The notes under the pieces are model-generated. The model was given only the letters and a program-made list of their open reading frames with translations, was not told where the DNA came from and ran no database searches. From a virus: a stretch of 22,661 nt of DNA. The stretch is from the IMG/VR virus record IMGVR_UViG_3300043446_003824, positions 1 to 22,661 of that record; one strand, given 5' to 3'. The position numbers and the translations under genes were made by a program. Below, one piece after another: positions 6,710 through 22,661 of the stretch. Position 1 is the stretch's first letter. Each line of letters starts with the position of its first letter.

Positions 6710-6782
6710 TGGGGATTAGCTCAGCAGGCAGAGCGGGAAGCTGTTAACTTCTAGGTCGTAAGTTCGAATCTTACATCCCCAG
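6710..6782 (+). tRNA. tRNA-Asn (GTT)
   Basis: The cloverleaf folds fully: acceptor TGGGGAT/ATCCCCA, D arm GCTC/GAGC, anticodon loop CTGTTAA (GTT), T arm GTAAG-TTCGAAT-CTTAC, discriminator G. CCA is not encoded. First of a four-tRNA cluster, 8 nt after the protease gene. Confidence 0.95.
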
Positions 6783-6786
6783 CAAA

Positions 6787-6860
6787 GGCCCATTAGCTCA
6801 GTTGGTTAGAGCGCTACCCTGTCACGGTAGAGGTCGACAGTTCAAGTCTGTTATGGGTCG
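6787..6860 (+). tRNA. tRNA-Asp (GTC)
   Basis: Acceptor GGCCCAT/ATGGGTC, D arm GCTC/GAGC, anticodon loop CTGTCAC (GTC), T loop TTCAAGT, discriminator G. CCA is not encoded. Only 4 nt separate it from tRNA-Asn. Confidence 0.95.
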
Positions 6861-6864
6861 CTTA

Positions 6865-6936
6865 GTCTCCATCGTCTAGTGGTTAGGACATCAGGTTTTC
6901 AACCTGGAAACGAGAGTTCAATTCTCTCTGGAGATG
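6865..6936 (+). tRNA. tRNA-Glu (TTC)
   Basis: Acceptor GTCTCCA/TGGAGAT (G-U at the end pair), anticodon stem CAGG/CCTG with loop TTTTCAA (TTC), T arm GAGAG-TTCAATT-CTCTC, discriminator G. CCA is not encoded. Confidence 0.94.
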
Positions 6937-6937
6937 C

Positions 6938-7009
6938 GCCTCCCTAGCTCAGTGGTAGAGCATCCGCCTTGTAAGCGGAAGGTCGTCAGTTCAATCCTGA
7001 CGGGGGGCT
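6938..7009 (+). tRNA. tRNA-Thr (TGT)
   Basis: Acceptor GCCTCCC/GGGGGGC, anticodon stem TCCGC/GCGGA with loop CTTGTAA (TGT), T arm GTCAG-TTCAATC-CTGAC, discriminator T. A single base separates it from the previous tRNA and from the GTG start of the next gene. Confidence 0.95.
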
Positions 7010-7010
7010 C

Positions 7011-11788: not shown

Positions 11789-12138
11789 TGATAATTGCAG
11801 TACAGGGCAGTAAAGACTTTGATGATTACCAGGTGTTTTTACGTGCCATGGGAGTAGCAATGTCAAGCATGAATAAAGATGATAAAGAAATTTATATTTA
11901 TTCAATAGGTCCAACAAGAATTAATTCAATGGTTTTGGAGTTTTGTAATCTATCAGAGCGTGGCATGAAGGCCAGGGGTATGAAGATGAAGAGCTACAAG
12001 GTTCCATCCGAATGGATTCTAGAGAATATGGAACATGTAAATTATTTTGCATTTCTCAGCAAGCCAAAACAATCTGTTTCAAAGTTAGTTTCAGAGGCTG
12101 AGTTAAAAGGAATAGAAGTAGGAATTTTTAGATACTAA
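11788..12138 (+). CDS. Rossmann-like (SLOG/DUF2493-like) protein
   Basis: 116 residues starting MIIAVQGSKDFDDYQVFLRAM, which resembles the first strand and loop of DUF2493/YpsA-type SLOG folds (V-x-G-S-x-D-F-D). Alternating predicted strands and helices follow (EIYIYSIGP, VNYFAFLSK, GIEVGIFRY). SLOG proteins bind nucleotides or their derivatives. The assignment rests on a short motif, so it is tentative; presence as a conserved phage gene is likely. Confidence 0.72.
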   Translation: MIIAVQGSKDFDDYQVFLRAMGVAMSSMNKDDKEIYIYSIGPTRINSMVLEFCNLSERGMKARGMKMKSYKVPSEWILENMEHVNYFAFLSKPKQSVSKLVSEAELKGIEVGIFRY

Positions 12139-12149
12139 AGGATAAAGCT

Positions 12150-12359
12150 ATGATTATTAAAAGTTTAGAAAAAATGGAAAAAATTGTATCAAAAAACAAA
12201 AACCTATCATGGGTTGGTTGGGATGTTGTTGATAGAAAAAGATCTGAGTCTGGGCGCACTGCCGTAAGTGGCGTAAGAGTTGACGGAGTTTGGTATCTTC
12301 AAAGAGTATATCCTGTTAGCCGTAATGGATGGGACATTCCTTATAAGTATAAGGACTAG
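12150..12359 (+). CDS. Hypothetical protein (69 aa)
   Basis: 69 residues with NLSWVGWDVVDRKRS and VSGVRVDGVWYLQRVYPVSRNGWDIP. It is rich in Trp, Arg and Tyr and probably a small beta protein; similar 'W.GWDVV' proteins occur in actinophages by my recollection. AAAGGA precedes the ATG by 8 nt. Function unknown. Confidence 0.75.
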   Translation: MIIKSLEKMEKIVSKNKNLSWVGWDVVDRKRSESGRTAVSGVRVDGVWYLQRVYPVSRNGWDIPYKYKD

Positions 12360-12361
12360 AC

Positions 12362-12649
12362 ATGAAGCAGCATCTTTGGAAAGATCAGTCTTCCTGTTTA
12401 GGTATAGATACAAATATCTTTTTTGATAAATACGAAGAAGATATAAATGCACGTCCAATAGTTGATTCTCTTTGTAAGTCCTGTCCAGTTGCTAAAACAT
12501 GTTTTGCTGTAGGTGTATCTGGAAAAGAGTGGGGAGTCTGGGGCGGTATATATCTTGAGGGTGGAGAAATATCAAAAGAGTTTAACAATCATAAGGATAA
12601 AAAAACTTGGGGTGAAACATGGAAAGCTTTGACAACGGAAACGAAATAA
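12362..12649 (+). CDS. WhiB-family Fe-S transcription factor
   Basis: 95 residues with the Wbl signature: four cysteines (Cys12, Cys38, Cys41, Cys47; C-x25-CxxC-x5-C) to bind a [4Fe-4S] cluster, followed by the GVWGG turn (residues 58-62) and a short C-terminal tail. Wbl proteins bind the primary sigma factor and modulate transcription; phage versions can repress host whiB genes, as known for mycobacteriophage TM4. The basic DNA-contacting tail is short (KDKKTWGETWKA). This is the strongest single indicator of an actinobacterial host. Its gene runs 31 nt into the next one. Confidence 0.92.
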   Translation: MKQHLWKDQSSCLGIDTNIFFDKYEEDINARPIVDSLCKSCPVAKTCFAVGVSGKEWGVWGGIYLEGGEISKEFNNHKDKKTWGETWKALTTETK

Positions 12650-12921
12650 CTAATTTCAGATCAATGTGCTCAATACTATCTGAGCTCTGGATGAACTATA
12701 AAGAAGATAAAGATTTTAAAGAGTTTATTGAGTATAATGATTTAGGCTTACCACTTGCATTTTTAATAGACTCTGAAATTGTTGAGTCAACAGATCAAGC
12801 AGAGCAATATGTTAGTGAAACGTGGAATATATTTTTATCAGCGCTTGGTGTTGAAAAAGATACTGGCTGGGAATCACTTGATGATTTATTTAAATATATA
12901 GAAAAGAAAAATGGTAAATAG
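12619..12921 (+). CDS. Conserved acidic phage protein
   Basis: 100 acidic residues with DFKEFIEYNDLGLPLAFLID, VSETWNIFLSALGV and WESLDDLF. The 'F..NDLGLPLA' block is, as I recall, frequent in actinobacteriophage proteins of unknown function. It overlaps the WhiB gene by 31 nt in another frame and the next gene by 11 nt. Helical content is high; no motif for an enzyme. Confidence 0.77.
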   Translation: MESFDNGNEITNFRSMCSILSELWMNYKEDKDFKEFIEYNDLGLPLAFLIDSEIVESTDQAEQYVSETWNIFLSALGVEKDTGWESLDDLFKYIEKKNGK

Positions 12922-13633
12922 TATGACTAAAATATTAAAAATTATAGCTGAAGAGTTTAATGCTGAAGAATTTATCAATATTTTGCCAGCATCTGAATTT
13001 ATTCCAGAATGGTATAGACAATCTCCTATTAAAACGCCTCAAACCTTTTCAGAATTATCATTGACAGCACAAGGGGCTACAAATTCAACTTATAAAAGAT
13101 GCACTCCATTTTTTGATGCCATGACATCTGGATATATTGCATATTTAACAGCAGATATAGAGATTATACAAAAACCAAATGGGACACCTTTTATTGCTAA
13201 TAGAACAAATAGACTTATTGTTTCAGACCACTCAGAGCAGCAGTGGATTGGTCTGCCAGAGCCAAGTGGATATCACCGTGTAGTATATAAATGGCATAAT
13301 CAATTTTCTTTTAATTCTCCAGAAGGGTATTCACTTCTATTTACTCAGCCAATTAATCGTTTTGATCTGCCATTTTTAACTGTAACTGGAATTGTAGATG
13401 TAGATAAATGGGATCTACAGGTTCACTATCCATTTTTTATTAGACAAGATTTTCATGGAATTATAGAAAAGGGTACTCCAATTGTTCAAATTATTCCAAT
13501 TAAAAGAGAAAATTGGGAAAGAAAATTTGAGCCATATGAAGAAAAAAATACTCGTTCTAAATTAGATAAATTTTATTCAACAATAAAAAGATCTTATAAA
13601 AATAATTATTGGACAAAAAAAGAGTATAAATAA
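12911..13633 (+). CDS. Conserved tailed-phage protein of unknown function (240 aa)
   Basis: 240 residues with ILPASEFIPEWYRQSP, YKRCTPFFDAMTSGYIAYL, GYSLLFTQPINRFDLPFL, VTGIVDVDKWDLQVHYPFF and GTPIVQIIPIKRENWERKF. These blocks recur in a protein found widely in marine and freshwater tailed phages; I believe its function is unknown. The strand-rich pattern (GYI, GYSLLF, GTPIVQIIP) suggests a beta-barrel enzyme or structural fold. A second start at ATG 12923 is possible; neither has a clear ribosome binding site. Overlaps neighbours on both sides. Confidence 0.83.
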   Translation: MVNSMTKILKIIAEEFNAEEFINILPASEFIPEWYRQSPIKTPQTFSELSLTAQGATNSTYKRCTPFFDAMTSGYIAYLTADIEIIQKPNGTPFIANRTNRLIVSDHSEQQWIGLPEPSGYHRVVYKWHNQFSFNSPEGYSLLFTQPINRFDLPFLTVTGIVDVDKWDLQVHYPFFIRQDFHGIIEKGTPIVQIIPIKRENWERKFEPYEEKNTRSKLDKFYSTIKRSYKNNYWTKKEYK

Positions 13634-13863
13634 TGTATACAGATACAATGCGTAGAGCTTTTCATTCTATTACACCGCCAAAAAATTTTGGTATAAATCT
13701 TATTGATAATGATACATTTATTACAATAAAATTAGACGAAAAGTCATTTATTAGAATGACGCATGATGAAAAAATTGAGGCAGTTAAATATATCTCTATG
13801 GTAAAAAAAGCCTTAGAAATGGAAGGCGCAATAGTATTAGTAACAAGAGAACCACTTAAATGA
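13633..13863 (+). CDS. Hypothetical protein (76 aa)
   Basis: 76 residues starting MYTDTMRRAFHSITPPKNFG, with IKLDEKSFIRMTHDEKIEAVKYI and a final IVLVTREPL. Its ATG overlaps the upstream stop (TAATG) and its own stop overlaps the next ATG (ATGA), so it is translationally coupled. No family recognised. Confidence 0.75.
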   Translation: MYTDTMRRAFHSITPPKNFGINLIDNDTFITIKLDEKSFIRMTHDEKIEAVKYISMVKKALEMEGAIVLVTREPLK

Positions 13864-13991
13864 TTAAATATTTATTTATGTCAATTATTTGTAGAATTAA
13901 AGATCATGTCTTGACAGATATAGGTTCTTGCCCTTATACTGGTAAGACGTACAATGTTTGTACGAGATGCCTTAAAACTATGGAGAATTAA
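13860..13991 (+). CDS. Small zinc-finger-like protein (43 aa)
   Basis: A gene of 43 codons between two coupled genes: ATGA overlap on the left, TAATG on the right. The sequence carries C11, C24 and a terminal VCTRCLKTME (C34xxC37), with a His at residue 16, a pattern like other small phage zinc ribbons (CRIxxH ... CxRC). A TTGACA-N18-TATACT lies inside it by chance or as an internal promoter. Confidence 0.72.
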   Translation: MIKYLFMSIICRIKDHVLTDIGSCPYTGKTYNVCTRCLKTMEN

Positions 13992-14479
13992 TGCAAACAT
14001 TTTTAACATCAACCAATAGCTTAGAATGTGCTAATAATCTTGACAATAAAAGATTAAACAAACAAATACTTGAGGGCTATCAAATCCTTAACGTACTCTC
14101 TGGCATGTCTAAAACTGGTGGATGGCGCAATCATCCTGCCGTGTTGATGTGGAAAGGCTATGAGCGTGGTCTTTGGGACTATGTTCAAAGCATGGTGCAT
14201 ATAGCAAACCTGCGTGGTATTAAAACAGAAAATAATGTAAATAATCTTAATGCTTTATATAACCAATGCTGGGAAGACTGGGGAGATGAATATCCAGAAT
14301 TTTGGCGGGATGAAAATAAAGTAATGCGTATTATCACTACACATCGTGCTAATTTATTCAAGAAAGATCCTTTATATTACGTAAAGTATCAATATGCTGT
14401 AGATAGTCCATATAATGCTCCATGCTGTCCAGATAGAAAAGAACCTTGTAAGTATTATTGGCCAACACATGTGTCATAA
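13991..14479 (+). CDS. Pyrimidine-dimer DNA glycosylase-like protein (MSMEG_6728 / endonuclease V type)
   Basis: 162 residues: MQTFLTSTNSLECANNLD, then NKRLNKQILEGYQIL, GGWRNHPAVLMWKGYE and IITTHRANLFKKDP. This set is typical of bacterial and phage proteins grouped with the T4 DenV-like pyrimidine dimer excision family (actinobacterial MSMEG_6728 type). The family is thought to remove UV photoproducts through glycosylase/AP-lyase action, which would suit a sunlit-water phage. The C-terminal CCPDRKEPCKYYWPTHV adds three Cys and a His that may bind metal. Catalytic activity is inferred only. Confidence 0.8.
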   Translation: MQTFLTSTNSLECANNLDNKRLNKQILEGYQILNVLSGMSKTGGWRNHPAVLMWKGYERGLWDYVQSMVHIANLRGIKTENNVNNLNALYNQCWEDWGDEYPEFWRDENKVMRIITTHRANLFKKDPLYYVKYQYAVDSPYNAPCCPDRKEPCKYYWPTHVS

Positions 14480-14512
14480 TGTAGTATACTTACATATGAG
14501 AAGAGGTTTATT

Positions 14513-14932
14513 ATGGATATAGTGGTTGCAGCCTTAATGATGTTCTCTATATCATTTTTTATTGCATATTTACATGCAGCAATTAATCTTAAAAAAACCA
14601 CCGCAATGCTTACAGAAATAATACTAATACACCTTGCAACAACAAACTCTATTCCAGAATCTATTAAAAATCCAATTTCTCCAGATGATATACATAAAGA
14701 AAATTTTATAAAGTTTTTATCAGAATCTCGTGATTGGGCCTATCAATATATTGAAGATGTTCAAAAAGGAATATCTGATTTTGTTTCTGAGGTAGAGCCA
14801 TCAGTTAATTATTTTAATGAATATGGAATAGTTATAGAGGGAATGCCACTATATAATGATATGAAAAAACTATCAGATAGTTTTGAGAAACTAAAAAAAC
14901 TTTTGCCAGAGGATATTGATGATAGACGCTAG
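14513..14932 (+). CDS. Membrane-anchored helical protein
   Basis: 139 residues with an N-terminal TM segment (about 3-26, VVAALMMFSISFFIAYLHAA) and a long acidic helical cytoplasmic or external part ending LKKLLPEDIDDRR. AAGAGG lies 6 nt before ATG. A possible TATACT at 14485-14490 lacks a good -35. No family recognised. The stop at 14930-14932 lies inside the next gene. Confidence 0.73.
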   Translation: MDIVVAALMMFSISFFIAYLHAAINLKKTTAMLTEIILIHLATTNSIPESIKNPISPDDIHKENFIKFLSESRDWAYQYIEDVQKGISDFVSEVEPSVNYFNEYGIVIEGMPLYNDMKKLSDSFEKLKKLLPEDIDDRR

Positions 14933-15134
14933 AGGTATTCCTACATGTACATGCCCTAGCTGTGGTGGCAGTCTTTTTAGAGCATTGGTATCTTTTGATC
15001 CAGATACCTATACTATTGGAATGTATCACTTGGATATTCAATGCCATGATTGTGGTGCGCTTGCTACCGCCCCAACACCAATAGATAATCCAGATAAGGA
15101 TAATGATGATAATTCCAAGACTCAAGAGTTTTGA
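14919..15134 (+). CDS. Zinc-ribbon protein (71 aa)
   Basis: From ATG 14919 (AGAGGA 5 nt upstream; a TTG directly before it is also possible) the product has CTCPSCGGSL (CxC, CxxC) and, 29 residues later, CHDCGALA: a classical zinc ribbon with two CxxC knuckles. The acidic tail DNPDKDNDDN follows. Such small ribbons often bind nucleic acid or transcription partners. It overlaps the genes on both sides (14 and 29 nt). Confidence 0.8.
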   Translation: MIDARGIPTCTCPSCGGSLFRALVSFDPDTYTIGMYHLDIQCHDCGALATAPTPIDNPDKDNDDNSKTQEF

Positions 15135-15273
15135 AGAAAGTTTAAAGTATGACTATGCTGTTTGTGAAGTTGTTTTATGTAGTAAAGAGTCTTACAAACT
15201 TGCTATGACAGAAACAAGGTTTGTAGATTTTTGTGAAGATCATTACAAAATATATATATTGGGGGAAAAATGA
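15106..15273 (+). CDS. Small Cys-rich protein (55 aa)
   Basis: A short gene of 55 codons (ATG 15106; ATG 15103 is directly before it) with AAGGA at 15096-15100. The pattern C20, C25, C43 and H46 (VVLCSKES ... DFCEDHYKIYIL) recalls small zinc-binding proteins with an FC..H ending. It overlaps the upstream zinc ribbon by 29 nt and the next gene by 4 nt (ATGA). A competing frame over 15233-15451 has no ribosome binding site and is discarded. Confidence 0.65.
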   Translation: MIIPRLKSFEESLKYDYAVCEVVLCSKESYKLAMTETRFVDFCEDHYKIYILGEK

Positions 15274-15428
15274 AAGATATATTGTTATCAACAATAACAG
15301 GTTTTGGATGTGGCGTAGTGTTCGCAGCATTCAAATTGCCAGTTCCAGCACCGCCAGTTTTTGCAGGGGTGGCAGGAATAATTGGTCTTTGGGCTGGCTA
15401 TGCTATACTAATAAAGGTTCTATCCTAG
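15270..15428 (+). CDS. XapX-domain membrane protein (52 aa)
   Basis: 52 residues, nearly all hydrophobic: an N-terminal TM helix, then KLPVPAPPVFAGVAGIIGLWAGY and a short tail. The central L-P-x-P-A-P-P...AG..GI.G...GY is the signature of XapX domains, found in short bacterial membrane proteins of unknown function. ATG overlaps the previous stop by 4 nt, and GGGGGAAAA supplies a purine-rich binding site. It precedes another small membrane protein. Confidence 0.83.
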   Translation: MKDILLSTITGFGCGVVFAAFKLPVPAPPVFAGVAGIIGLWAGYAILIKVLS

Positions 15429-15437
15429 GAGGAAAAA

Positions 15438-15689
15438 ATGGAACTAAGTAAGAAAAATAAGGCAATGCTTGCATCATATGCTCGTTCAGTAGTAGGTGCA
15501 GCTTCAGCTCTATATGTTGCTGGTGTAACAGATCCAAAGGATCTATGGGCAGCTCTTGTTGGTGCTCTAATTCCAGTAGCTGTACGTGCAGTAAATCCAA
15601 ACGATCCAGCATTTGGACGTTTGCCAAAAGCATCTGCTGTGGAAGAAGCTCTTAAGGCTGCAAAGCCAAAGAAAAAGAAATCTGAATAA
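15438..15689 (+). CDS. Conserved phage membrane-associated protein (83 aa), holin-like
   Basis: 83 residues: basic start MELSKKNKAML, hydrophobic helices at about 10-28 and 34-52, and the block LIPVAVRAVNPNDPAFGRLP before a lysine-rich tail AKPKKKKSE. The PNDPAFGR block appears conserved in phages. Two short hydrophobic helices and a basic tail suit a holin-like role, but it lies far from the endolysin. AGGAGG at 15427-15432 is very strong, and a terminator follows directly, both signs of high expression. Confidence 0.78.
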   Translation: MELSKKNKAMLASYARSVVGAASALYVAGVTDPKDLWAALVGALIPVAVRAVNPNDPAFGRLPKASAVEEALKAAKPKKKKSE

Positions 15690-15709
15690 TAATCAGATTT
15701 ATATGTGAG

Positions 15710-15738
15710 GCGGATCTAGAAATAGATCCGCTTTACTT
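15710..15738 (+). terminator. Rho-independent terminator closing the long + strand operon
   Basis: 9-bp perfect stem GCGGATCTA/TAGATCCGC with a GAAA tetraloop and TTTACTTAT after it. It has the same design (GAAA loop, long stem) as the terminator at 1603-1632 and separates the 11390-15689 gene run from the glycan island. Confidence 0.88.
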
Positions 15739-15751
15739 ATAGGATAAATAT

Positions 15752-16450
15752 ATGGCAAACTTTGGATCATTGTGGATAGGAAATCCTTTAAGTAAAGTAG
15801 AGCAAACTGCTCTATCTTCTTTCATCCACTATGGACATTCATTTACATTATTTGTATATGATATGTCTATGAAAGTACCTAAAGGGATTATTAAAGAAGA
15901 CGCAAATAAAATTATTCCAGAGTCTGAAATATTTAAAATCCAAAATTCTTACGGACCATTTGCAGATATGTTTAGATACACAATGATTAAAAAAACTGGT
16001 CTAATATGGACAGATACTGACTCTATCTGTTTAAGATCTGATTGGGATTTTGGAGATTATCTTTTTGGTTTTGAAGAAGACAAAAGGTTGGCGAACGGAA
16101 TACTAAAGATGCCACAAGATTCTGACCTAATAAACTTTTTAATCAAGAACTCTGTAAAGTATGATAAAAGTAAAATAGTCTGGTCTGAGATAGGGCCACT
16201 GCTAGTAACAAAGGGTGCTAAAAAATACGGGGTGCTAAAATATGCACAGCCTCCAGAAGTATTTTATCCAGTACATTTCTGGCAATGGAAAAAGATATGG
16301 GATAGGGATTATAAAGAAGAGGTTCTTAATAAGTGCAAAGAAAGTCATACATTACAAATATGGAATCAGTTTTTAAACAGGGGAGGAATTGATAAAAATA
16401 AACTTCCCAAAGGATCTGCTATAGATTATCTTTATAATAAGTTTAATTAG
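15752..16450 (+). CDS. Glycosyltransferase with DXD sugar-binding region (GT32/OCH1-like)
   Basis: 232 residues. SLWIGNPLSKVEQTALSSF near the start and YGPFADMFRYTMIKKTGLIWTDTDSICLR (read as two neighbouring blocks) form the nucleotide-sugar site; TDTD holds the DXD that binds Mn2+ and the donor. The family transfers sugars such as mannose or galactose to glycans or lipids. TAGGAT at 15740-15745 could be a -10 with exactly 6 nt to ATG, or AGGA could act as ribosome binding site. Its stop overlaps that of the convergent gene by 3 nt (TTAG) with no terminator between. Confidence 0.85.
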   Translation: MANFGSLWIGNPLSKVEQTALSSFIHYGHSFTLFVYDMSMKVPKGIIKEDANKIIPESEIFKIQNSYGPFADMFRYTMIKKTGLIWTDTDSICLRSDWDFGDYLFGFEEDKRLANGILKMPQDSDLINFLIKNSVKYDKSKIVWSEIGPLLVTKGAKKYGVLKYAQPPEVFYPVHFWQWKKIWDRDYKEEVLNKCKESHTLQIWNQFLNRGGIDKNKLPKGSAIDYLYNKFN

Positions 16451-17919
16451 ACATATCCAGTCATATCTTGTTTATCAACATTTTGAACAGTAGATCTAGT
16501 TTTATATATATTGCATATGTTTGGTCTATCCATTTTTATAGTATAAACATTTAGGCTATTGTGGTAATAAAGATAGTGATCTATTGGTCTTGACACTGGA
16601 TTTTTTACATCCTCTATTATTTTCTTTGCCCCAGATTTGCTAACTATATAACATAAACATGACCATGACTGATAAACCTTACAAATATTTTCTTTTCCAA
16701 TCATTAAATCTTTGGCATTCTTTTTATATCTTATATTGCCAGTTTCTGGAATATAGACAGTAAACACATCCCAGTCTTCTGGGAGCTCGTCAATATACTT
16801 ATATATCATCTGATTAAAGTTTTTAGAAATCTGTATATCATCCTCCATAAGCATTAGATGATCATATTTAGAATCAACAAAGTTATTCCAAGCAGTATAG
16901 TTGCTAGCCCAAATGCCCAACTCTCCAGGCTTCCATCCGCCATCCTCATGACCTTTAGGATAGATTTTTATTTTAGACTTCTTATAAAAACTTTTAATGT
17001 CCTCTACGTTCTTCATTATAATTGTTGGAGTTTCTAACTCAACAAAGTTTTCTTCAAGTTGTTTTTTTGCACGTTTTACAAGTTTGCTTCTTACCTCAAT
17101 ATCATTATTTTTTTCATCATGAAATATTTTAAAACATATTTTTGGATTTTTAATTTTTTGGGTTAATCCAGCTCCAGTGTCAAAAAACTGTTCTTTAGGA
17201 TATAACTTGCTATTTTTTTCCCACCAACCATCTATGTGCTCTTTTGATCTTGTGTGGAATGTGGAGTGTGATGAGTTAATAGCATGTTTAGTATCAAGTA
17301 TATAGGTAAACAGTGGCATTGAATATGCATTTCCTAAGTTGTACAATATAACATCTGCCGCCTGATTTTTAAAACCAAAACTATTAAAAATATATTTGTC
17401 ACCGATTTTATGATTTTTAACTAAATTTTTAGCATAACTTCTTTTTATTAAATAACATGCAGTAGACCAAGAATAATGTGATTTATCTTTATAATTAAAC
17501 TGTTCTTTTTTATGTAAACTAAACTTAACAGGTTCATTCTGTATCATAATAAATTGAACAATTTCAGCATTTTTAGGAATATTTTTTACAACATAGTTCC
17601 AATCCCATTGCCAATATTGCACGGTATCAAAACTAAAATCATCTTCCATTATTATTGCATATTCAGAGTCTGAGGTATTTAACCAATAATCTAAAGCCTT
17701 GATGTGTGAAGCAAGGCATCCTATTTCGCTAGATTTTAGATTAGGATATTTACCACTAACAATACTAGATAAATCATCTTTTCTTCCATCTACCGCTTCA
17801 ATAATTGTATAGTCAGCTACATCGTATTTTTGAAATTCGTTTTTAGCATTTTTTAATCTATGCTTATGGTCTTTCAAATTTATTAAATATACTGGACCAA
17901 AGTTCTGTAGTTTACTCAT
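16447..17919 (-). CDS. Two-domain glycosyltransferase, tandem GT25-like modules
   Basis: 490 residues. Domain 1 (about 8-225) is a GT25 (LPS beta-galactosyltransferase-type) module: VYLINLKDHKHRLKNAK, EAVDGRKDD, SSEIGCLASHIKALDYWL and IIMEDDFSF (residues 91-94 MEDD). Domain 2 (about 255-475) repeats the layout more loosely: PGELGIWASNYTAWNNFV and LMLMEDDIQIS (MEDD at 358-361), CYIVSKSGAKKII, PIDHYLYYH. Two complete acceptor/donor sites in one chain suggest a bifunctional enzyme adding two sugars. ATG overlaps the end of the upstream methyltransferase by 8 nt, so both come from the divergent promoter at 18495. Confidence 0.86.
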   Translation of the reverse strand: MSKLQNFGPVYLINLKDHKHRLKNAKNEFQKYDVADYTIIEAVDGRKDDLSSIVSGKYPNLKSSEIGCLASHIKALDYWLNTSDSEYAIIMEDDFSFDTVQYWQWDWNYVVKNIPKNAEIVQFIMIQNEPVKFSLHKKEQFNYKDKSHYSWSTACYLIKRSYAKNLVKNHKIGDKYIFNSFGFKNQAADVILYNLGNAYSMPLFTYILDTKHAINSSHSTFHTRSKEHIDGWWEKNSKLYPKEQFFDTGAGLTQKIKNPKICFKIFHDEKNNDIEVRSKLVKRAKKQLEENFVELETPTIIMKNVEDIKSFYKKSKIKIYPKGHEDGGWKPGELGIWASNYTAWNNFVDSKYDHLMLMEDDIQISKNFNQMIYKYIDELPEDWDVFTVYIPETGNIRYKKNAKDLMIGKENICKVYQSWSCLCYIVSKSGAKKIIEDVKNPVSRPIDHYLYYHNSLNVYTIKMDRPNICNIYKTRSTVQNVDKQDMTGYV

Positions 17920-18487
17920 TCTTAGATATCCAGACCTGTCCGTTCTTTATAATCAAAGATAGGTCCTTGCTATACTCGTTTAAAAATCTGTCTATTCCAG
18001 GTTTTGGGGACATTAGAGGGTCGTTAGAGTCATGTGACCATGTATAGTCATCAAAAGCCATGATTCCGCCCTTCTTAAGGCATCTCCAGCCGAATGTGGC
18101 ATCTTTATAGACTTCCTCTGCACGATGATCACCGTCAACATATATAAAATCATAATGTTCGTCTTGGGCATTTTGTAGGAAGTCAGAAGAGTATCCTTTT
18201 ATTTTACAAATATTTTTATACTTAGATACACGTTCATCATAATATGATTCTACATCCTGCCAGTCAAATGTTTTATGAATATTTTCATCTGATCCACACC
18301 ATGTATCAACATCTGTTAGCCAAGATGTTTCATGTGTAATTATATTTTCCATCATCCATTCTGTAGCATCCCCAGTATATGCACCTATCTGTAAAAAATC
18401 TATATAAGGTTTGCCAGCATACCTTTCTGGAAGGATTAGCTGGAAATACTGTATAGCTCCCATTTTAAACCAATTTGGATACCCCAT
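17912..18487 (-). CDS. Class I SAM-dependent methyltransferase
   Basis: 191 residues. IDFLQIGAYTGDATEWM is the SAM-binding glycine loop (motif I), FIYVDGDHRAEEVYKDA the later acidic strand, and KKGGIMAFDDYTW the motif near the active site. This is the layout of Methyltransf_24-type enzymes, which often act on sugars in polysaccharide clusters. First gene of the leftward pair; its ATG is 7 nt from a TATAAT, implying leaderless translation. Confidence 0.87.
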   Translation of the reverse strand: MGYPNWFKMGAIQYFQLILPERYAGKPYIDFLQIGAYTGDATEWMMENIITHETSWLTDVDTWCGSDENIHKTFDWQDVESYYDERVSKYKNICKIKGYSSDFLQNAQDEHYDFIYVDGDHRAEEVYKDATFGWRCLKKGGIMAFDDYTWSHDSNDPLMSPKPGIDRFLNEYSKDLSLIIKNGQVWISKNE

Positions 18488-18494
18488 ATATTCA

Positions 18495-18500
18495 ATTATA
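18495..18500 (-). promoter_or_regulatory. -10 box, leftward half of divergent promoter
   Basis: TATAAT on the minus strand, 7 nt before ATG (18487). There is no strong -35, and the region upstream is occupied by the opposing promoter. Confidence 0.65.
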
Positions 18501-18510
18501 CCCTATCTTC

Positions 18511-18519
18511 TGGTATAAT
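18511..18519 (+). promoter_or_regulatory. Extended -10, rightward half of divergent promoter
   Basis: TGGTATAAT, 5 nt before GTG (18525), so transcription is expected to start at the start codon. The two -10 boxes are 13 nt apart on opposite strands. Confidence 0.7.
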
Positions 18520-18524
18520 TAAAT

Positions 18525-19103
18525 GTGTCTTTAAAAACTATAATTTCTCAAAACCAACTCAATAATGCAAAGCTTTATTCAACAAAGTTTGAGTTTATAA
18601 AATATTTGCCTAAAAATGCAAAAATGTTAGAAATAGGAACGCTTGCAGGCGATTACGCTGAACTATTACTAAATACAAACCCAGACTGCCTTGATCTGGT
18701 TGATGTATTTATGGCAAATGACTGGAAAGATCTTAATAGATTTAATAAAGATGGTCACTACGATTTTGTAAAAAATAGATTTAAAAATAATCCAGAAGTT
18801 AGCCTACATAAAGGATATAGTCACGATATCTTGCCTACGCTAAATAAAAAGTATGACTATATTTATATAGATGCTAACCATGACTATGATCATGTTGCAA
18901 AAGATTTAGAGTATTCGCTACCACTGCTTGCTGATGGAGGTATCATAGGATTTAATGACTATATATATGATGATGCAGACTATATAGTTTATGGTGTAAT
19001 TGAAACGGTATGTGAATTTTTAGATAAAAATAAAGATTGGGAAGTAATAGGTTTTGCATTACAGGAAAGAATGTATGCAGATATTTATATTAAAAAGGTT
19101 TAA
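18525..19103 (+). CDS. Class I SAM-dependent methyltransferase
   Basis: 192 residues with AKMLEIGTLAGDYAELLL (SAM loop), LDLVDVF, YDYIYIDANHDYDHVAKDL and LADGGIIGFNDYIYDD. It is related in plan to the methyltransferase at 17912 but clearly diverged, so an ancient duplication or separate acquisition is possible. GTG start with leaderless spacing and no Shine-Dalgarno. An overlapping ATG two bases earlier runs into a stop at once, confirming GTG. Likely sugar or nucleotide-sugar methylation. Confidence 0.86.
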   Translation: MSLKTIISQNQLNNAKLYSTKFEFIKYLPKNAKMLEIGTLAGDYAELLLNTNPDCLDLVDVFMANDWKDLNRFNKDGHYDFVKNRFKNNPEVSLHKGYSHDILPTLNKKYDYIYIDANHDYDHVAKDLEYSLPLLADGGIIGFNDYIYDDADYIVYGVIETVCEFLDKNKDWEVIGFALQERMYADIYIKKV

Positions 19104-19105
19104 TA

Positions 19106-19762
19106 GTGGATTTTGTTTATATATGTCGTGATGGTGAAAATGAAGAGTTAAGGTATTCTATTAGATCTGTATTGCATTTTTATCCAGATGCCGTAATTCA
19201 TATTTTTGGTGGTAAACCAAAATGGTATTCTGGAAACTTTACTGAAATAAAAGATTTTGGTAATAAGTTTGATAATATGGATCAATGTTATAAAGCTATA
19301 TGTGAAAGTAATATAGAAAATTTTATACTTATGAATGACGATTTTTATATTATAAATAAACCTGATAGTTTTACCTATTACTTTGATGGCCCATTAAGCT
19401 TAAAAATAGAATCTCATATGGCAAAGTATGGAATATCAAAGTATTCTAGAGTACTGTCAGAAGCAAATACAAAATTAAAATCTATGGGAATTGACAACCC
19501 TGTTAACTATGATGTTCATACTCCTATGTTATTTAATAAAGTAAAATTATCTAAAATAGTTGATTTGTCTTCTGCACCTAGATCAATGTATGGAAATATA
19601 TATAATGTTGGTGGAGAAAAAATAAAAGATGTAAAAATATATAAACACACTGATTCTATTTATATAGATGGATATTTTTTATCAAGTGAGGATAATTCAT
19701 TTAATAAAATAAAATCTTTTATTGATAAAAAATTTAGTAAAAAAACCATTTATGAGTCTTGA
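19106..19762 (+). CDS. Stealth-like sugar(-phosphate) transferase
   Basis: 218 residues. DFVYICRDGENEELRYSIRS, HIFGGKPKWYSG, FILMNDDFYI, a HxP block (VHTPMLFNK) and RSMYGN match in order the conserved regions of Stealth-type capsule polymerases (hexose-1-phosphate transferases) or related glycosyltransferases. It is shorter than full Stealth proteins. GTG start 2 nt after the methyltransferase stop, so both are co-transcribed. It probably transfers a sugar or sugar phosphate onto a surface glycan. Its end overlaps a small minus-strand gene by 13 nt. Confidence 0.78.
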   Translation: MDFVYICRDGENEELRYSIRSVLHFYPDAVIHIFGGKPKWYSGNFTEIKDFGNKFDNMDQCYKAICESNIENFILMNDDFYIINKPDSFTYYFDGPLSLKIESHMAKYGISKYSRVLSEANTKLKSMGIDNPVNYDVHTPMLFNKVKLSKIVDLSSAPRSMYGNIYNVGGEKIKDVKIYKHTDSIYIDGYFLSSEDNSFNKIKSFIDKKFSKKTIYES

Positions 19763-19902
19763 CTATTTATTAATTCAATAATTTTTTTTACATATTTTTC
19801 ATAATCAATATCAATAATAAGGTTACCATCAATTAATTTATGGATTTTAACTTCTTTACCTATTTCAAAAAGTATTGATCTTATATCATCTTCAATATTC
19901 AT
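19750..19902 (-). CDS. Small hypothetical protein (50 aa)
   Basis: 50 codons: MNIEDDIRSILFEIGKEVK then LIDGNLIIDIDYEKY and a lysine-rich helix. The composition is protein-like (amphipathic helices, a beta pair). An extended -10 TGCTATAAT lies exactly 6 nt before ATG. It overlaps the 3' end of the convergent glycosyltransferase by 13 nt. Function unknown. Confidence 0.6.
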   Translation of the reverse strand: MNIEDDIRSILFEIGKEVKIHKLIDGNLIIDIDYEKYVKKIIELINSQDS

Positions 19903-19908
19903 AATTTT

Positions 19909-19917
19909 ATTATAGCA
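19909..19917 (-). promoter_or_regulatory. Extended -10 with leaderless spacing, touching tRNA-Arg
   Basis: TGCTATAAT on the minus strand; its first two bases are within the end of the tRNA-Arg gene. ATG 19902 follows after 6 nt. Confidence 0.6.
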
Positions 19918-19988
19918 CCCCTGGCAGGAATCGAACCTGCGACGCAGACCTTAGAAGAGTCTCGCTCTGTCCACTGAGCTACAGAGGT
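19916..19988 (-). tRNA. tRNA-Arg (TCT)
   Basis: Acceptor ACCTCTG/CAGGGGT, D arm GCTC/GAGC, anticodon loop CTTCTAA (TCT), T arm GCAGG-TTCGATT-CCTGC, discriminator G. CCA is not encoded. It reads AGA, a frequent Arg codon in these genes. Confidence 0.95.
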
Positions 19989-19992
19989 CTGG

Positions 19993-20063
19993 AGCGGATG
20001 ACGAGAATCGAACTCGCACCATCAGCTTGGAAGGCTGAAGCACTACCATTATGCAACATCCGC
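19993..20063 (-). tRNA. tRNA-Gly (TCC)
   Basis: Acceptor GCGGATG/CATCCGC, anticodon stem TCAGC/GCTGA with loop CTTCCAA (TCC), T loop TTCGATT, discriminator T. It reads GGA. Confidence 0.95.
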
Positions 20064-20067
20064 AATG

Positions 20068-20141
20068 TGGAACATGTAGGACTTGAACCTACGACGACCC
20101 GATTATGAGTCGGGGGCTCTAACCAACTGAGCTAATGTTCC
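20068..20141 (-). tRNA. tRNA-Met (CAT), or tRNA-Ile with modified CAT
   Basis: Acceptor GGAACAT/ATGTTCC, D arm GCTC/GAGC, anticodon stem CCCGA/TCGGG with loop CTCATAA (CAT), T arm GTAGG-TTCAAGT-CCTAC, discriminator A. The first pair is G-C, so it is not an initiator of the usual mismatched type. Lysidine-type tRNA-Ile is the alternative. Its first base is the last base of the upstream gene's stop codon. Confidence 0.9.
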
Positions 20142-20479
20142 TAATCTTCTAACCTTTTAAGTATATCCCAAGTTCCTGGATCTTTCAACATCTTGTCTAC
20201 AGCTTCCGAAACTTCCTGTCTAACTGGCGGTATAGAATATTTATCATCCTTCGTAATACTATTAAGAAGGTTCATTATTCTTACACAATCATCATGCTTC
20301 CACCATGTATAACAGAATAATTTTTCGTCTGCCTCAATGATGTTAGGACAAGATTTATACTCTTCAACTATTTGATCTATTACTTGCTTTGCAGCTTTTT
20401 TACACCCATTACATGGGCATTTCCAATTACCCCTCTGTGGTGTTTGGTTTGGATCCGCCATTATCTGGAAGCCTTTCAT
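20141..20479 (-). CDS. Conserved hypothetical protein with CPC-GC knuckle
   Basis: 112 residues (ATG 20479 preceded by AAGAGG; ATG 20461, starting MADPNQ, is an alternative). NWKCPCNGCKKAAKQVIDQIVEEY near the start carries three Cys that may form a zinc site; further Cys and His lie in LFCYTWWKHDDC. The rest is helical and acidic. Similar proteins exist in actinophages as far as I recall; function unknown. Start lies inside the upstream gene, and the TAG stop shares a base with tRNA-Met. Confidence 0.75.
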   Translation of the reverse strand: MKGFQIMADPNQTPQRGNWKCPCNGCKKAAKQVIDQIVEEYKSCPNIIEADEKLFCYTWWKHDDCVRIMNLLNSITKDDKYSIPPVRQEVSEAVDKMLKDPGTWDILKRLED

Positions 20480-20681
20480 TCAAACCTCTTGCTATATCAG
20501 CACAAACCATAAATGCTTTCTTTGTTTGTCTGCTTTTAGCTTTGCCGTGAGTAGCCCAAACTTCATATGTATATTCAATATCCATAGCAATTTGTTCTCT
20601 AATTTCTTTTACAGTAAAAACAATAAAATCCCATACCTGCTTTTTTTGTTCATCTGTTAATTCTTCAGTCCAGTTTGTCAT
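20427..20681 (-). CDS. Hypothetical helical protein (84 aa)
   Basis: 84 residues: MTNWTEELTDEQKKQVWDFI, a long helix with EIREQIAMDIEYTYEVW, a basic patch GKAKSRQTKKA and NERLPDNGG. AAGGAA lies 7 nt before ATG. It is downstream of SSB, beyond a hairpin, and overlaps the next gene. No family recognised. Confidence 0.73.
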   Translation of the reverse strand: MTNWTEELTDEQKKQVWDFIVFTVKEIREQIAMDIEYTYEVWATHGKAKSRQTKKAFMVCADIARGLNERLPDNGGSKPNTTEG

Positions 20682-20697
20682 ATATATTCCTTAAAGA

Positions 20698-20730
20698 ATG
20701 CCGTGCCAAACAATGAGTAAGGCACGGCAT
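20698..20730 (-). terminator. Stem-loop between SSB and downstream genes
   Basis: A perfect 10-bp inverted repeat, ATGCCGTGCC/GGCACGGCAT, with a 13-nt loop lies 8 nt after the SSB stop; on the minus strand TTCTTTAAGG follows. The T-tract is short, so it may be a partial terminator or a 3'-end stabiliser for ssb mRNA. Confidence 0.6.
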
Positions 20731-20738
20731 ATCTTATA

Positions 20739-21116
20739 TTATCCCTTTGTCCAAGGATCGTTTTCTGTTGTTGCACTAGCCATTGCAGGCTGTTTCGTAA
20801 TAGTATATGCAGTCAAACCAATTGAGTCTGCAGTTACTTCGTAAGAGGTTTTAGTATTTCCAGAACTGTCTGTCCAAGATTCTTGATAGATAGTTCCTGA
20901 AATAATTACTTCTTGACCCTTCTTTAGAGTCTTCTTTGTTTGTTCTGCAAGAGTCTTCCAAGCTTTAACGGTCCACCATGATGTGTCACGGTCTTCCCAT
21001 TCTCCCTTGTCATTCTTTGCACGATCACTTGTTACAACACGAAGTCGCACTCCACTTGTTCCAATTGATTCTGGATCAGCACCAAGGCGACCAACTAGTG
21101 TTACTTTAGGATTCAT
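20739..21116 (-). CDS. ssb: Single-stranded DNA-binding protein
   Basis: 125 residues with an OB-fold of the bacterial SSB type: VTLVGRLGADPES, VRLRVVTSDR, DTSWWTVKAWKTLAEQ, LKKGQEVIISGTIYQESW and SYEVTADSIG. It coats single-stranded DNA during replication. The tail is very short and ends NDPWTKG; it lacks the usual DDDIPF-like acidic tip that recruits partner proteins, so phage-specific interactions are likely. It has its own promoter (21157-21185), and AAAAGAGAG precedes the ATG. Confidence 0.94.
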   Translation of the reverse strand: MNPKVTLVGRLGADPESIGTSGVRLRVVTSDRAKNDKGEWEDRDTSWWTVKAWKTLAEQTKKTLKKGQEVIISGTIYQESWTDSSGNTKTSYEVTADSIGLTAYTITKQPAMASATTENDPWTKG

Positions 21117-21156
21117 TTTGCTCTCTTTTCTACTAAGTTACGATATCCGTCATACA

Positions 21157-21185
21157 AGCATATCACATGCCTTTTTATTAGTCAA
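21157..21185 (-). promoter_or_regulatory. Promoter for ssb
   Basis: On the minus strand: TTGACT (21185-21180), 17-bp spacer, TGA-TATGCT (-10 at 21162-21157, extended). The -35 lies directly behind the stop of the upstream gene. The leader is about 34 nt. Confidence 0.65.
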
Positions 21186-21434
21186 CTATGACCAATCCTC
21201 TTCATCCCATTTAATCTTATAAAACGTTCCATACTTTTGATAAAAAGGATATGTCAAATCAAATATTCTACAATAGAATTCTGCTCTTTTAGTTTGTCCA
21301 TACTCTTCATAATATGAGCATCTCATTATTGCCCATCCACTGATTTCGCCAAACAAATTGGCGATCCATCGTAATGGTGGGCGGGATTTATGAATAGGCT
21401 CACTATCCCAATCTAATACATCATCTTCATGCAT
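21186..21434 (-). CDS. Hypothetical protein (82 aa)
   Basis: 82 residues from ATG 21434 (a TTG two codons earlier is less likely): MHEDDVLDWDSEPIHKSRPPLRW, then NLFGEISGWAIMRCSYYEEYG and KIKWDEEDW. Rich in aromatic and acidic residues. It overlaps the upstream 56-residue gene by 8 nt. No family recognised. Confidence 0.75.
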   Translation of the reverse strand: MHEDDVLDWDSEPIHKSRPPLRWIANLFGEISGWAIMRCSYYEEYGQTKRAEFYCRIFDLTYPFYQKYGTFYKIKWDEEDWS

Positions 21435-21597
21435 TTGCAATCACCCCACATAAAAACCCTATAATGAATACAGCAATAATAATAGCTCCTGTATATCGTC
21501 TTTCAATGTATTGTCTAATAACATCATTAGCAATAATTTGATTAATTTCTACAGAGTTGTTATCTTCATCTTTTGTAAAATATTTATATCTTTTCAC
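21427..21597 (-). CDS. Small tail-anchored membrane protein (56 aa)
   Basis: A short gene of 56 codons with GTG start and AGAGG 7 nt upstream. An acidic N-terminal part (YFTKDEDNNSVEINQII) leads to a C-terminal TM helix, GAIIIAVFIIGFLCGVIANA, that would anchor the protein with its N-terminus in the cytoplasm. GTGA overlap with the upstream gene and 8-nt overlap downstream show translational coupling. Confidence 0.72.
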   Translation of the reverse strand: MKRYKYFTKDEDNNSVEINQIIANDVIRQYIERRYTGAIIIAVFIIGFLCGVIANA

Positions 21598-21740
21598 TTT
21601 TTACCTCTAGCAATGTTTGCTGCCATCATTCTCATGCCTAAAGCATTCTCTATAGATGGCTTAATTTCAATAGATTCAATCTCTTTTGCTATTTCTTCAC
21701 GCAAATCTTGGAGGTGCATATCTAAAGTTTTTTCGGTCAT
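21594..21740 (-). CDS. Small helical protein (48 aa)
   Basis: 48 codons: MTEKTLDMHLQDLREEIAKE followed by IESIEIKPS and LGMRMMAANIARGKK. The acidic amphipathic helix and basic tail suggest a small coiled or DNA-associated protein. AAAGGAA precedes ATG, which overlaps the upstream stop (ATGA). Confidence 0.7.
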   Translation of the reverse strand: MTEKTLDMHLQDLREEIAKEIESIEIKPSIENALGMRMMAANIARGKK

Positions 21741-21841
21741 TTATGTTCCTTTCTATGTCTATTTAAAGTGTCATGAGCAAAGATGCCCCAGCGCACTTCT
21801 ATTTCTTTTTTGCAAACGTCGCAAATTACAACTCTACCCAT
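21737..21841 (-). CDS. C2H2 zinc-finger miniprotein (34 aa)
   Basis: 34 codons: C7xxC10 and H29xxxH33 with TLNRH between (VICDVCKKEIEV ... HDTLNRHRKEH), the spacing of a single classical C2H2 finger. It may bind DNA, RNA or a protein. Its start is set by a strong promoter with -10 exactly 6 nt upstream, so it heads a leaderless transcript of four tiny overlapping genes. Confidence 0.75.
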   Translation of the reverse strand: MGRVVICDVCKKEIEVRWGIFAHDTLNRHRKEHK

Positions 21842-21847
21842 GTATCA

Positions 21848-21876
21848 AGTATAGCGCAAAGTGGATCTAAAGTCAA
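21848..21876 (-). promoter_or_regulatory. Strong leaderless promoter of the tiny-gene operon
   Basis: Minus strand: TTGACT (21876-21871), 17-bp spacer, TATACT (21853-21848), then 6 nt to ATG 21841. Confidence 0.82.
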
Positions 21877-21919
21877 TCTTTAAAGTTCGGCGAAAAATAG
21901 AAATACAAAACCAACATAT

Positions 21920-21934
21920 GCCCTGAAACAGGGC
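21920..21934 (-). terminator. Hairpin after the 33-residue zinc-ribbon gene
   Basis: GCCCTG and CAGGGC form a 6-bp GC-rich stem with a 3-nt loop, extendable through CATA/TATG and AACC/GGTT. On the minus strand ATATGTTGGTTTTG follows, and on the plus strand GGTTATTTTTCTCT. It may terminate in both directions and isolates the promoter at 21848. Confidence 0.55.
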
Positions 21935-21941
21935 GGTATGG

Positions 21942-22043
21942 TTATTTTTCTCTAATCTTTTTGCCACATCTCCTACAATACATATTATAGCTAAATACTA
22001 ACTTATGTCCTAAATTTTTACACTCTTCTTTTGCAGACTCCAT
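21942..22043 (-). CDS. Small zinc-ribbon protein (33 aa)
   Basis: 33 codons from ATG 22043: C8...H13, then MYCRRCGKKI (C23xxC26), a CxxxxH/CxxC zinc site. TATAAT lies exactly 6 nt before ATG. The frame is open further upstream to ATG 22100, which would give a 52-residue product, but those codons look less protein-like and overlap the -10 box. Confidence 0.65.
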   Translation of the reverse strand: MESAKEECKNLGHKLVFSYNMYCRRCGKKIREK

Positions 22044-22049
22044 ATATAA

Positions 22050-22055
22050 ATTATA
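22050..22055 (-). promoter_or_regulatory. -10 box with leaderless spacing
   Basis: Minus-strand TATAAT with 6 nt to ATG 22043; no strong -35. Confidence 0.55.
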
Positions 22056-22074
22056 TCCTAAAACAGGGGGTATA

Positions 22075-22206
22075 TCAAATATCAATTTTCTCAGCATCAT
22101 CTATATGATCGTCTATATCACGATAAATAGGAAATATCTCTTGTATTATCTGTTTCAACTATTCTCTCCCATCCACATGTATATAAACATCTGTAGAATA
22201 TGGAAT
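22075..22206 (-). pseudogene. Possible broken gene with in-frame TAG
   Basis: One minus-strand frame reads IPYSTDVYIHVDGRE, then TAG (22161-22159), then TTG and KQIIQEIFPIYRDIDDHIDD up to TGA at 22075. Both halves look like protein, and a missense at the TAG (for example from TGG) would join them. No ATG or GTG opens the frame, which is closed by another TAG at 22212-22210. A 27-residue gene starting at TTG 22158 behind GGAGAG is the alternative. The frame overlaps the gene call at 22118 in another frame. Confidence 0.3.
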
Positions 22207-22345
22207 TTTCTAGCTCTATCGTAATATATTGATGTAAATGCATTAGATTATTATAAAGCTTTTTAAGGCGGGTTGCTAACTGATAGGCCAATAAGGAAAT
22301 AGTCAGATTACCTTTAGCAACCCATATGAGCCTTTTATCACTCAT
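22118..22345 (-). CDS. Uncertain hypothetical protein (75 aa)
   Basis: From ATG 22345: MSDKRLIWVAKGNLTISLLA, then YQLATRLKKLYNNLMHLHQY and CGWERIVETD. The N-terminal half looks like an amphipathic helical protein; the C-terminal third competes with another protein-like frame (22075-22206), so a frameshift or chance ORF is possible. There is no Shine-Dalgarno; the bases before ATG are pyrimidine-rich. Upstream in-frame codons to TTG 22408 run through non-triplet repeats and are probably not translated. Confidence 0.42.
   Translation of the reverse strand: MSDKRLIWVAKGNLTISLLAYQLATRLKKLYNNLMHLHQYITIELENSIFYRCLYTCGWERIVETDNTRDISYLS
22270..22323. repeat. Long inverted repeat, 10-bp arms
   Basis: GGGTTGCTAA (22270-22279) and TTAGCAACCC (22314-22323) are perfect complements, with an inner CTGA/TCAG pair (22280-22283, 22303-22306). 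It could fold in RNA of either strand or be a protein binding site. It lies inside the uncertain gene at 22118. Confidence 0.6.
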
Positions 22346-22424
22346 GCTCAGGAGGAGATCCCCAGAAAGGGAGGGACCATTTCTACCCCAGAAAGGGAGG
22401 GTAGACAAGCAATTTCTTGCCTGC
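22346..22424 (-). ncRNA. Hairpin-array leader or small RNA with repeated CU-rich loops
   Basis: A strong minus-strand promoter (22431-22459) predicts a 5' end near 22424. Three stem-loops follow in order: GGCAAG/CTTGTC (22421-22404), CTACCC/GGGTAG (22404-22383) and GGTCCC/GGGATC (22378-22357). The last two have different stems but the same 10-nt loop TCCCTTTCTG. The first and third stems contain G-U pairs in the minus-strand RNA, where plus-strand RNA would have A-C mismatches, so the minus strand is the folded one. CTCCTCC follows before ATG 22345. It may be a small RNA or a regulatory leader. Confidence 0.52.
22360..22401. repeat. Two 16-bp direct repeats, 26-bp period
   Basis: CCCCAGAAAGGGAGGG occurs at 22360-22375 and 22386-22401, separated by 10 nt. 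They form the two loop-sharing hairpins of the RNA candidate. The 26-nt period is not a multiple of three, which argues against coding. Confidence 0.9.
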
Positions 22425-22430
22425 TATATA

Positions 22431-22459
22431 ATTATATCAAATCCCATATATCATGTCAA
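22431..22459 (-). promoter_or_regulatory. Near-perfect consensus promoter, leftward
   Basis: Minus strand: TTGACA (22459-22454), 17-bp spacer ending in TGA, TATAAT (22436-22431). It has consensus -35, spacer, extended -10 and -10 together, the best promoter in the window. No start codon lies at the leaderless distance. Confidence 0.85.
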
Positions 22460-22496
22460 ATAGGGGTATCCACAAATTTGGGCGGTATATAGGAAA

Positions 22497-22505
22497 TGCT
22501 ATAAT
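22497..22505 (+). promoter_or_regulatory. Extended -10 for the rightward end gene
   Basis: TGCTATAAT, 9 nt before ATG 22515; the leader would be at most a few bases. It diverges from the strong leftward promoter. Confidence 0.6.
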
Positions 22506-22514
22506 ATCCCTAGT

Positions 22515-22661
22515 ATGATAACAAACTGTATAACATGTAAGACTAAATTAGTCCCTATCGTATATGATAGATTAGATCCAGAAATCCTAGATATGCAGGA
22601 TAAAGGGTTAATATTGGTTGGATTGAATAAAGGACCAGGAACACCTAATTCATTTTGCCCA
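22515..22661 (+). CDS. Zinc-binding protein, partial at right edge
   Basis: The first 49 codons of a gene cut by the window end: MITNCITCKTKLVPIVYDRL opens with C5xxC8, and a further Cys (SFCP) occurs at the edge, as expected for the second knuckle of a zinc ribbon. The sequence GLILVGLNKGPGTPNSFC lies between. No Shine-Dalgarno is present; near-leaderless promoter upstream. Confidence 0.68.
   Translation, partial: MITNCITCKTKLVPIVYDRLDPEILDMQDKGLILVGLNKGPGTPNSFCP

Follow-up and report, generated by a model that had tools for sequence, protein, structure and literature searches.

The window, by which we mean the whole stretch of DNA that was analysed (22,661 bases, IMG/VR virus record IMGVR_UViG_3300043446_003824), encodes on its minus strand a member of an RNA family with covarying stems and a covarying pseudoknot, constant loops, one copy per record, and a complementarity to Shine-Dalgarno (SD) sequences that is concentrated in one block of phage genes. 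The family comprises approximately 22 distinct phage loci, and it is real, lying far beyond what is expected by chance. With moderate confidence, we read the RNA (hereafter the array) as a trans-acting antisense RNA that would repress the translation of the phage's own gene block.

The features of the array are summarized in Table 1. Its predicted promoter was the top promoter of the scanned part (12000-22661), in agreement with the initial annotation, and the relatives have a -10 box at the same place. Transcription is expected to start near 22424 on the minus strand, and no ORF starts at leaderless distance, as had also been noted. The three 5' stem-loops described earlier, two of which share a loop, were recovered by folding. 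The minus-strand RNA folded better than shuffles (z of -1.93 for 85 nt and -2.66 for 175 nt) and the plus strand did not (z of +0.55), in line with the earlier remark that the G-U pairs of two stems fold only in the minus-strand RNA. A 16-nt repeat occurs twice in the window at a spacing of 26, and two matches to its 15-nt core (up to 3 mismatches) were reached in 1 of 100 shuffles. A TTG ORF (22118-22408) passes through the hairpins; the array as a coding sequence was ruled out, because the hairpins of the relatives are 26 or 27 nt apart, which breaks any frame. The segment at 22327-22266 is a stable inverted-repeat insertion that stands where the closest relative, L019, has its CCUUUCUGUAU tail; it removes the CCUUUCUG tail that most relatives retain, and the 3' end of the window's RNA copy may differ from theirs. 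Both neighbouring genes, the divergent one (22501-22661 plus, start near 22514) and the downstream one (22255-22118 minus, ATG at 22243), have a -10 box near the start codon and appear leaderless-like.

Table 1. Coordinates of the array in the window, its putative target site, and the second RNA type.
Feature	Position	Strand	Basis or remark
Predicted promoter TTGACA-17-TATAAT, TG ahead of the -10 box	22431..22459	-	12 of 12 consensus positions
5' stem-loop	22406..22423	-	Folding and comparison with relatives; sequence and length vary among them
First loop hairpin CUACCC[UCCCUUUCUG]GGGUAG	22383..22404	-	Folding, alignment; loop 22398-22389
Second loop hairpin GGUCCC[UCCCUUUCUG]GGGAUC	22357..22378	-	Folding, alignment; loop 22372-22363
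H-type pseudoknot CUCCUGAGCAUGAGUGAUAAAAGGCUC	22328..22354	-	Both helices covary in 136-170 phage copies
Pseudoknot helix P1	22354-22352 with 22343-22341	-	
Pseudoknot helix P2	22349-22346 with 22331-22328	-	
Segment of about 60 nt, long inverted repeat GGGUUGCUAA / UUAGCAACCC	22266..22327	-	Comparison with L019 and L013
AGAAAGG SD of a 48-aa ORF (21594-21740)	21748..21754	-	No other start site complementary to the loop was found in the window
Second RNA type, copies in relatives	L592:6740-6920, L580:6735-6915, L575:6712-6895, L585:6700-6880, and others		Alignment A2

We collected relatives with the 15-mer CCTCCCTTTCTGGGG, which matched 39 viral stretches. More than 20 of these were true relatives, sharing the promoter, the 5' hairpin, one or two loop hairpins, and the CUGAGCAUGA element, and a broader pattern search raised the family to its present size. 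In alignment A1 (20 two-hairpin copies), CCUUUCUGG was invariant in both loops, and 98.7% of the stem cells were paired versus 40-50% in slid controls. Changes on both sides were found in 10 of the 20 pairs, amounting to 47 double-sided cells versus 11.5 in shuffles. Helix 1 and helix 2 were each paired in 100% of cells, with both-sided changes in 4 of 6 and 5 of 6 pairs, respectively, and CCUUUCUG was invariant in the first loop hairpin. The covariation-like signature that the initial annotation saw within one molecule thus holds across the relatives: the stems change, and the loops stay constant and do not vary as freely as the flanks. A DNA-level repeat or operator was ruled out by the same combination of covarying stems and constant loops. 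Since the loop constancy of the pattern-collected set is partly imposed by the search patterns, relatives were also gathered by two proteins and then searched with a covariance model; this protein-collected set added L607 and L572 to the family, whose stems had not been seen before and whose loops all contain CCUUUCU.

Exactly one array was present in each of 16 of 16 viral records, and no true member was found among 84,980 prokaryote species. A prophage or host RNA was rejected, as none of the 107 prokaryote pattern matches had the full pseudoknot. The pattern CCTTTCTGSN{13,43}CCTTTCTGS proved too loose for viral contigs, and L166 and L167 were discarded as chance matches. A nucleotide search of the INPHARED phages gave no real relative of the array. 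When 30 pseudoknot-bearing records were searched with a covariance model for divergent arrays, the copies examined were standalone pseudoknots. Rfam 15 gave tRNAs only for the window; for the array region, the only hit at E values up to 10 was suhB/mmgR with 14.7 bits versus the 41 required, which is below the gathering threshold. The array family and its pseudoknot are new to Rfam. The tRNAs of the window lie in two clusters (6710-7010 plus and 19915-20141 minus: Asn, Asp, Glu, Thr and Arg(tct), Gly(tcc), Met). A 240-aa protein of unknown function (12911-13633 plus, phrog_7084) has INPHARED relatives mostly in haloarchaeal tailed viruses, at approximately 34% identity. Because the array-bearing relatives have proteins similar to those of Streptomyces and Mycobacterium phages, the host is likely actinobacterial. 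The array-bearing phages form a freshwater group that probably infects actinobacteria.

The 3' element of the array has the consensus XUCCUGRGYAUGAX'..UAAACUGCYC, in which X pairs with X'. The P2 pair R-Y was kept in 136 of 136 distinct copies. The base before UCC paired with the base after AUGA in 133 of these 136, for which the search pattern allowed only C or G at the latter position; among 170 copies collected less strictly, the same pair was G-C in 91, C-G in 54, A-T in 15, T-A in 7, and another combination in 3. The element is an H-type pseudoknot with four-way covariation. The CUCCUCC stretch that had been taken as an anti-SD feature is the 5' side of this pseudoknot and is not conserved, the relatives having, e.g., GCGCUCC, CCCGUCC, or CUAGUCC at its position. 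The pseudoknot alone was found in at least about 120 viral stretches, mostly 7-20 nt past stop codons and between same-strand genes, covering more than 100 phage intergenic sites. It had no match in Rfam 15, and a full-text literature search with its core sequence returned unrelated papers only. The first 50 kb of Streptomyces phage Jay2Jay contained no pseudoknot and one CAGAAAGG. An intrinsic terminator was rejected, as TTTT follows within 12 nt in only 34 of 150 standalone copies. We also considered an exoribonuclease-resistant RNA, in view of the H-type topology of the element and its position past stop codons; such resistance is putative, and our guess is that the pseudoknot protects RNA ends.

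In regards to the loops, CAGAAAGG is the exact complement of CCUUUCUG, and AGAAAGG is the leading SD of the array-bearing phages. In three long records, which were read piecewise (G252, 107.7 kb; G250, 101.8 kb; G258, 73.8 kb), the AGAAAGG SDs clustered in one small-gene block of approximately 10 kb, which for the most part shares the strand of the array gene and sits no more than approximately 13 kb upstream of it. This SD was found at 26 of 73 block genes versus 3 of 363 others (p = 2e-19 in the three long records, kinship being ignored). Loop duplexes below -8 kcal/mol were predicted for 59% of the block start regions versus 10% of others, and shuffled loops matched as well in 2 of 200 cases for the block and 76 of 200 for other starts. 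The reported antisense character of the CCUUU loops is thus specified as a match to the block SD. Phage genes outside the block have SDs of the GGAGG type or a -10 box close to their start. The corresponding block genes of L016 include DUF932, Api92-like (DUF1281_C), and Gp88 proteins. Judged from G250, G252, and G258, the block with most of the AGAAAGG SDs is to be expected past the right-hand edge of the window.

The initial annotation had speculated that the RNA masks the ribosome-binding sites of the host and leaves leaderless phage mRNAs untouched, and the loop is indeed complementary to an SD-type sequence. However, in three small actinobacterial genomes (putative hosts), 7-13% of the start regions matched the loop below -8 kcal/mol versus approximately 10% for shuffled loops, and AGAAAGG was present at 0-1.3% of the starts. 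This absence of a signal argues against host masking, which we regard as highly improbable, and for a target inside the phage, where the matches are found. The part of the earlier proposal that survives is the SD complementarity, which lies in the phage's own block and exceeds that of shuffled loops there; the sparing of leaderless mRNAs would apply, if at all, to phage genes outside the block.

In each of the 48 actinobacterial 16S genes that we read, the end is formed by CACCUCCUUUCU and then an A, so that the SD and the loop both resemble the rRNA tail, and complementarity alone is therefore no proof of contact. It is conceivable, although unlikely, that the loops mimic the 16S rRNA 3' tail as a decoy for a tail-binding factor (a 16S maturation enzyme, an initiation factor, or a ribosomal protein) and do not act on mRNAs. 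CCUUUCU ends each of these 16S genes, as a decoy would predict, but CACCUCC, which is part of the tail, is missing from the loop, the loop carries an extra G that is absent from the 16S gene, and the link observed between loop and SD type among relatives is not expected of a decoy. The predicted pairing of CAGAAAGGGA was -16.0 kcal/mol with the loop versus -9.4 kcal/mol with the 16S tail, and that of CAGAAAGGAA was -11.5 versus -10.3 kcal/mol; A/U-AGAAAGG sites bind the loop and the tail about equally. A C before and a G after AGAAAGG were more frequent among the loci assigned to the array-bearing class (p = 0.001 and 0.013, respectively); this class wrongly included four loci of the second RNA type described below. 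This trend toward coevolution of SD flanks and loop is suggestive overall and carries little weight because of these misclassed loci and because the DUF932 orthologs showed no flanking-base adaptation of the SD to the loop.

We read 80 of the 368 loci of DUF932 relatives. These protein-collected loci contained 28 distinct hairpins with CCTTTCT in the loop versus 0-3 for permuted 7-mers, and such hairpins were present in 29 of 42 loci where AGAAAGG SDs are frequent versus 3 of 38 where they are scarce (shared ancestry being ignored). Many of them are not arrays. A second RNA, unrelated to the array, lies approximately 190 nt upstream of the DUF932 gene; its stems vary, its loop is CUUUCAUCCUUUCUU, and it has a pseudoknot of the same kind. 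Array-less relatives with the second RNA use the same SD, AGAAAGG, and the two RNAs were never found together in one of the protein-collected loci. Relatives with other SDs had no such loops, apart from one hairpin common to L602, L604, and L605, and no compensating loops were found in relatives with the SDs AGAAAAGG, AAAAAGGAG, or AGAAAGAAGG. Some array-less relatives with neither RNA also have AGAAAGG SDs. Two unrelated RNAs with one loop and one SD type constitute the best evidence, drawn from sequence comparison, that the loop would meet the SD. Most copies of the second RNA have an adjoining hairpin with UUCAUGAAAGG, and the complementarity of CUUUCAU to AUGAAAG suggests a kissing pair. 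Other promoter-hairpin-pseudoknot RNAs with different middles were observed (L570:11848-11943, L591:12175-12270, L579, L617, L643:12402-12479, and L629:13178-13306), some of which occupy the region where relatives hold the array.

An RNA that repeats one loop on different stems might also be a sponge, its loops being the sites at which an RNA-binding protein of the host or the phage is soaked up. We consider this improbable, as it leaves unexplained that the loop is the complement of the block SD, and we know of no candidate protein. A cis-acting leader of the downstream gene would accord with the lack of a clear terminator and with the occurrence of the pseudoknot between genes. Nevertheless, the genes downstream of the array are unrelated across phages, and those of the inspected copies are all preceded by a -10 box of their own, a short distance from the start codon. 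This suits an independent RNA gene and makes a leader very unlikely.

For the antisense reading, we infer transcription, pairing in the cell, the direction of the effect (repression), and its timing. A small phage-encoded RNA gene with its own strong promoter would present repeated CCUUUCU loops, antisense to AGAAAGG, on hairpins. The putative target is the SD of approximately a dozen small non-structural genes adjoining the RNA gene. Pairing between loop and SD would keep 30S subunits off the block start sites and lower the translation of the whole block, so that the RNA would serve either to brake it or to switch from one phase of infection to another; the structures at the two ends of the RNA, a 5' hairpin and a 3' pseudoknot, would make it more stable. 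More tentatively, we propose a regulon addressed by SD type, in which a distinctive SD (CAGAAAGG) marks the block and a multi-loop RNA silences all of its bearers at once, with at least two unrelated RNAs having converged on the same loop and both ending in a new, widespread phage pseudoknot.

The array has the repeated CU-rich loop complementary to target SDs that defines the anti-SD small RNA class (LhrC-like). LhrC of Listeria has three UCCC sites able to block an SD; there and in other Gram-positive UCCC-loop small RNAs, copies of a CU-rich motif in loops or single-stranded stretches pair with SD regions and block translation (PMC4132741). By analogy, LhrC indicates that a multi-site anti-SD design can work (PMC4132741). 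Unlike the array, LhrC is bacterial, has another motif and structure, lacks a pseudoknot, and acts on cellular targets. The 6C RNA of Actinobacteria, from the same phylum, also has hairpins with C-rich loops that are thought to pair with several mRNAs (PMC9569102), whereas the array has a CCUUUCU loop with a central U, is phage-borne, and ends in a pseudoknot; the 6C covariance model gave no match to window positions 22200-22520 at E values up to 10. The c4 RNA of P1 and P7 is likewise a phage RNA whose loops pair with the ribosome-binding region of a phage mRNA, and that of P1 may serve as a phage precedent (PMC12197685). It acts on the ant mRNA in temperate-phage immunity (reviewed in PMC12197685), whereas the array would address a whole block through a shared SD, and no copy of the array was found in prokaryote genomes.

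In phage T4, RegB cleaves early initiation regions at GGAG, and RegA is a competitor of the ribosome on approximately 30 mRNAs (PMC3014915). Both are phage-encoded and shut off many early genes by acting on their initiation regions or SDs, as proposed for the array, and T4 suggests by analogy that such a shut-off is needed (PMC3014915); RegA and RegB are proteins, whereas the array is an RNA. The pseudoknot, with no Rfam entry and a wide intergenic distribution, bears separately on phage mRNA ends. If the antisense reading is true, lake actinobacterial phages would possess an RNA counterpart of the T4 RegA/RegB switch, and one gene block could be marked for joint control through the SD alone.
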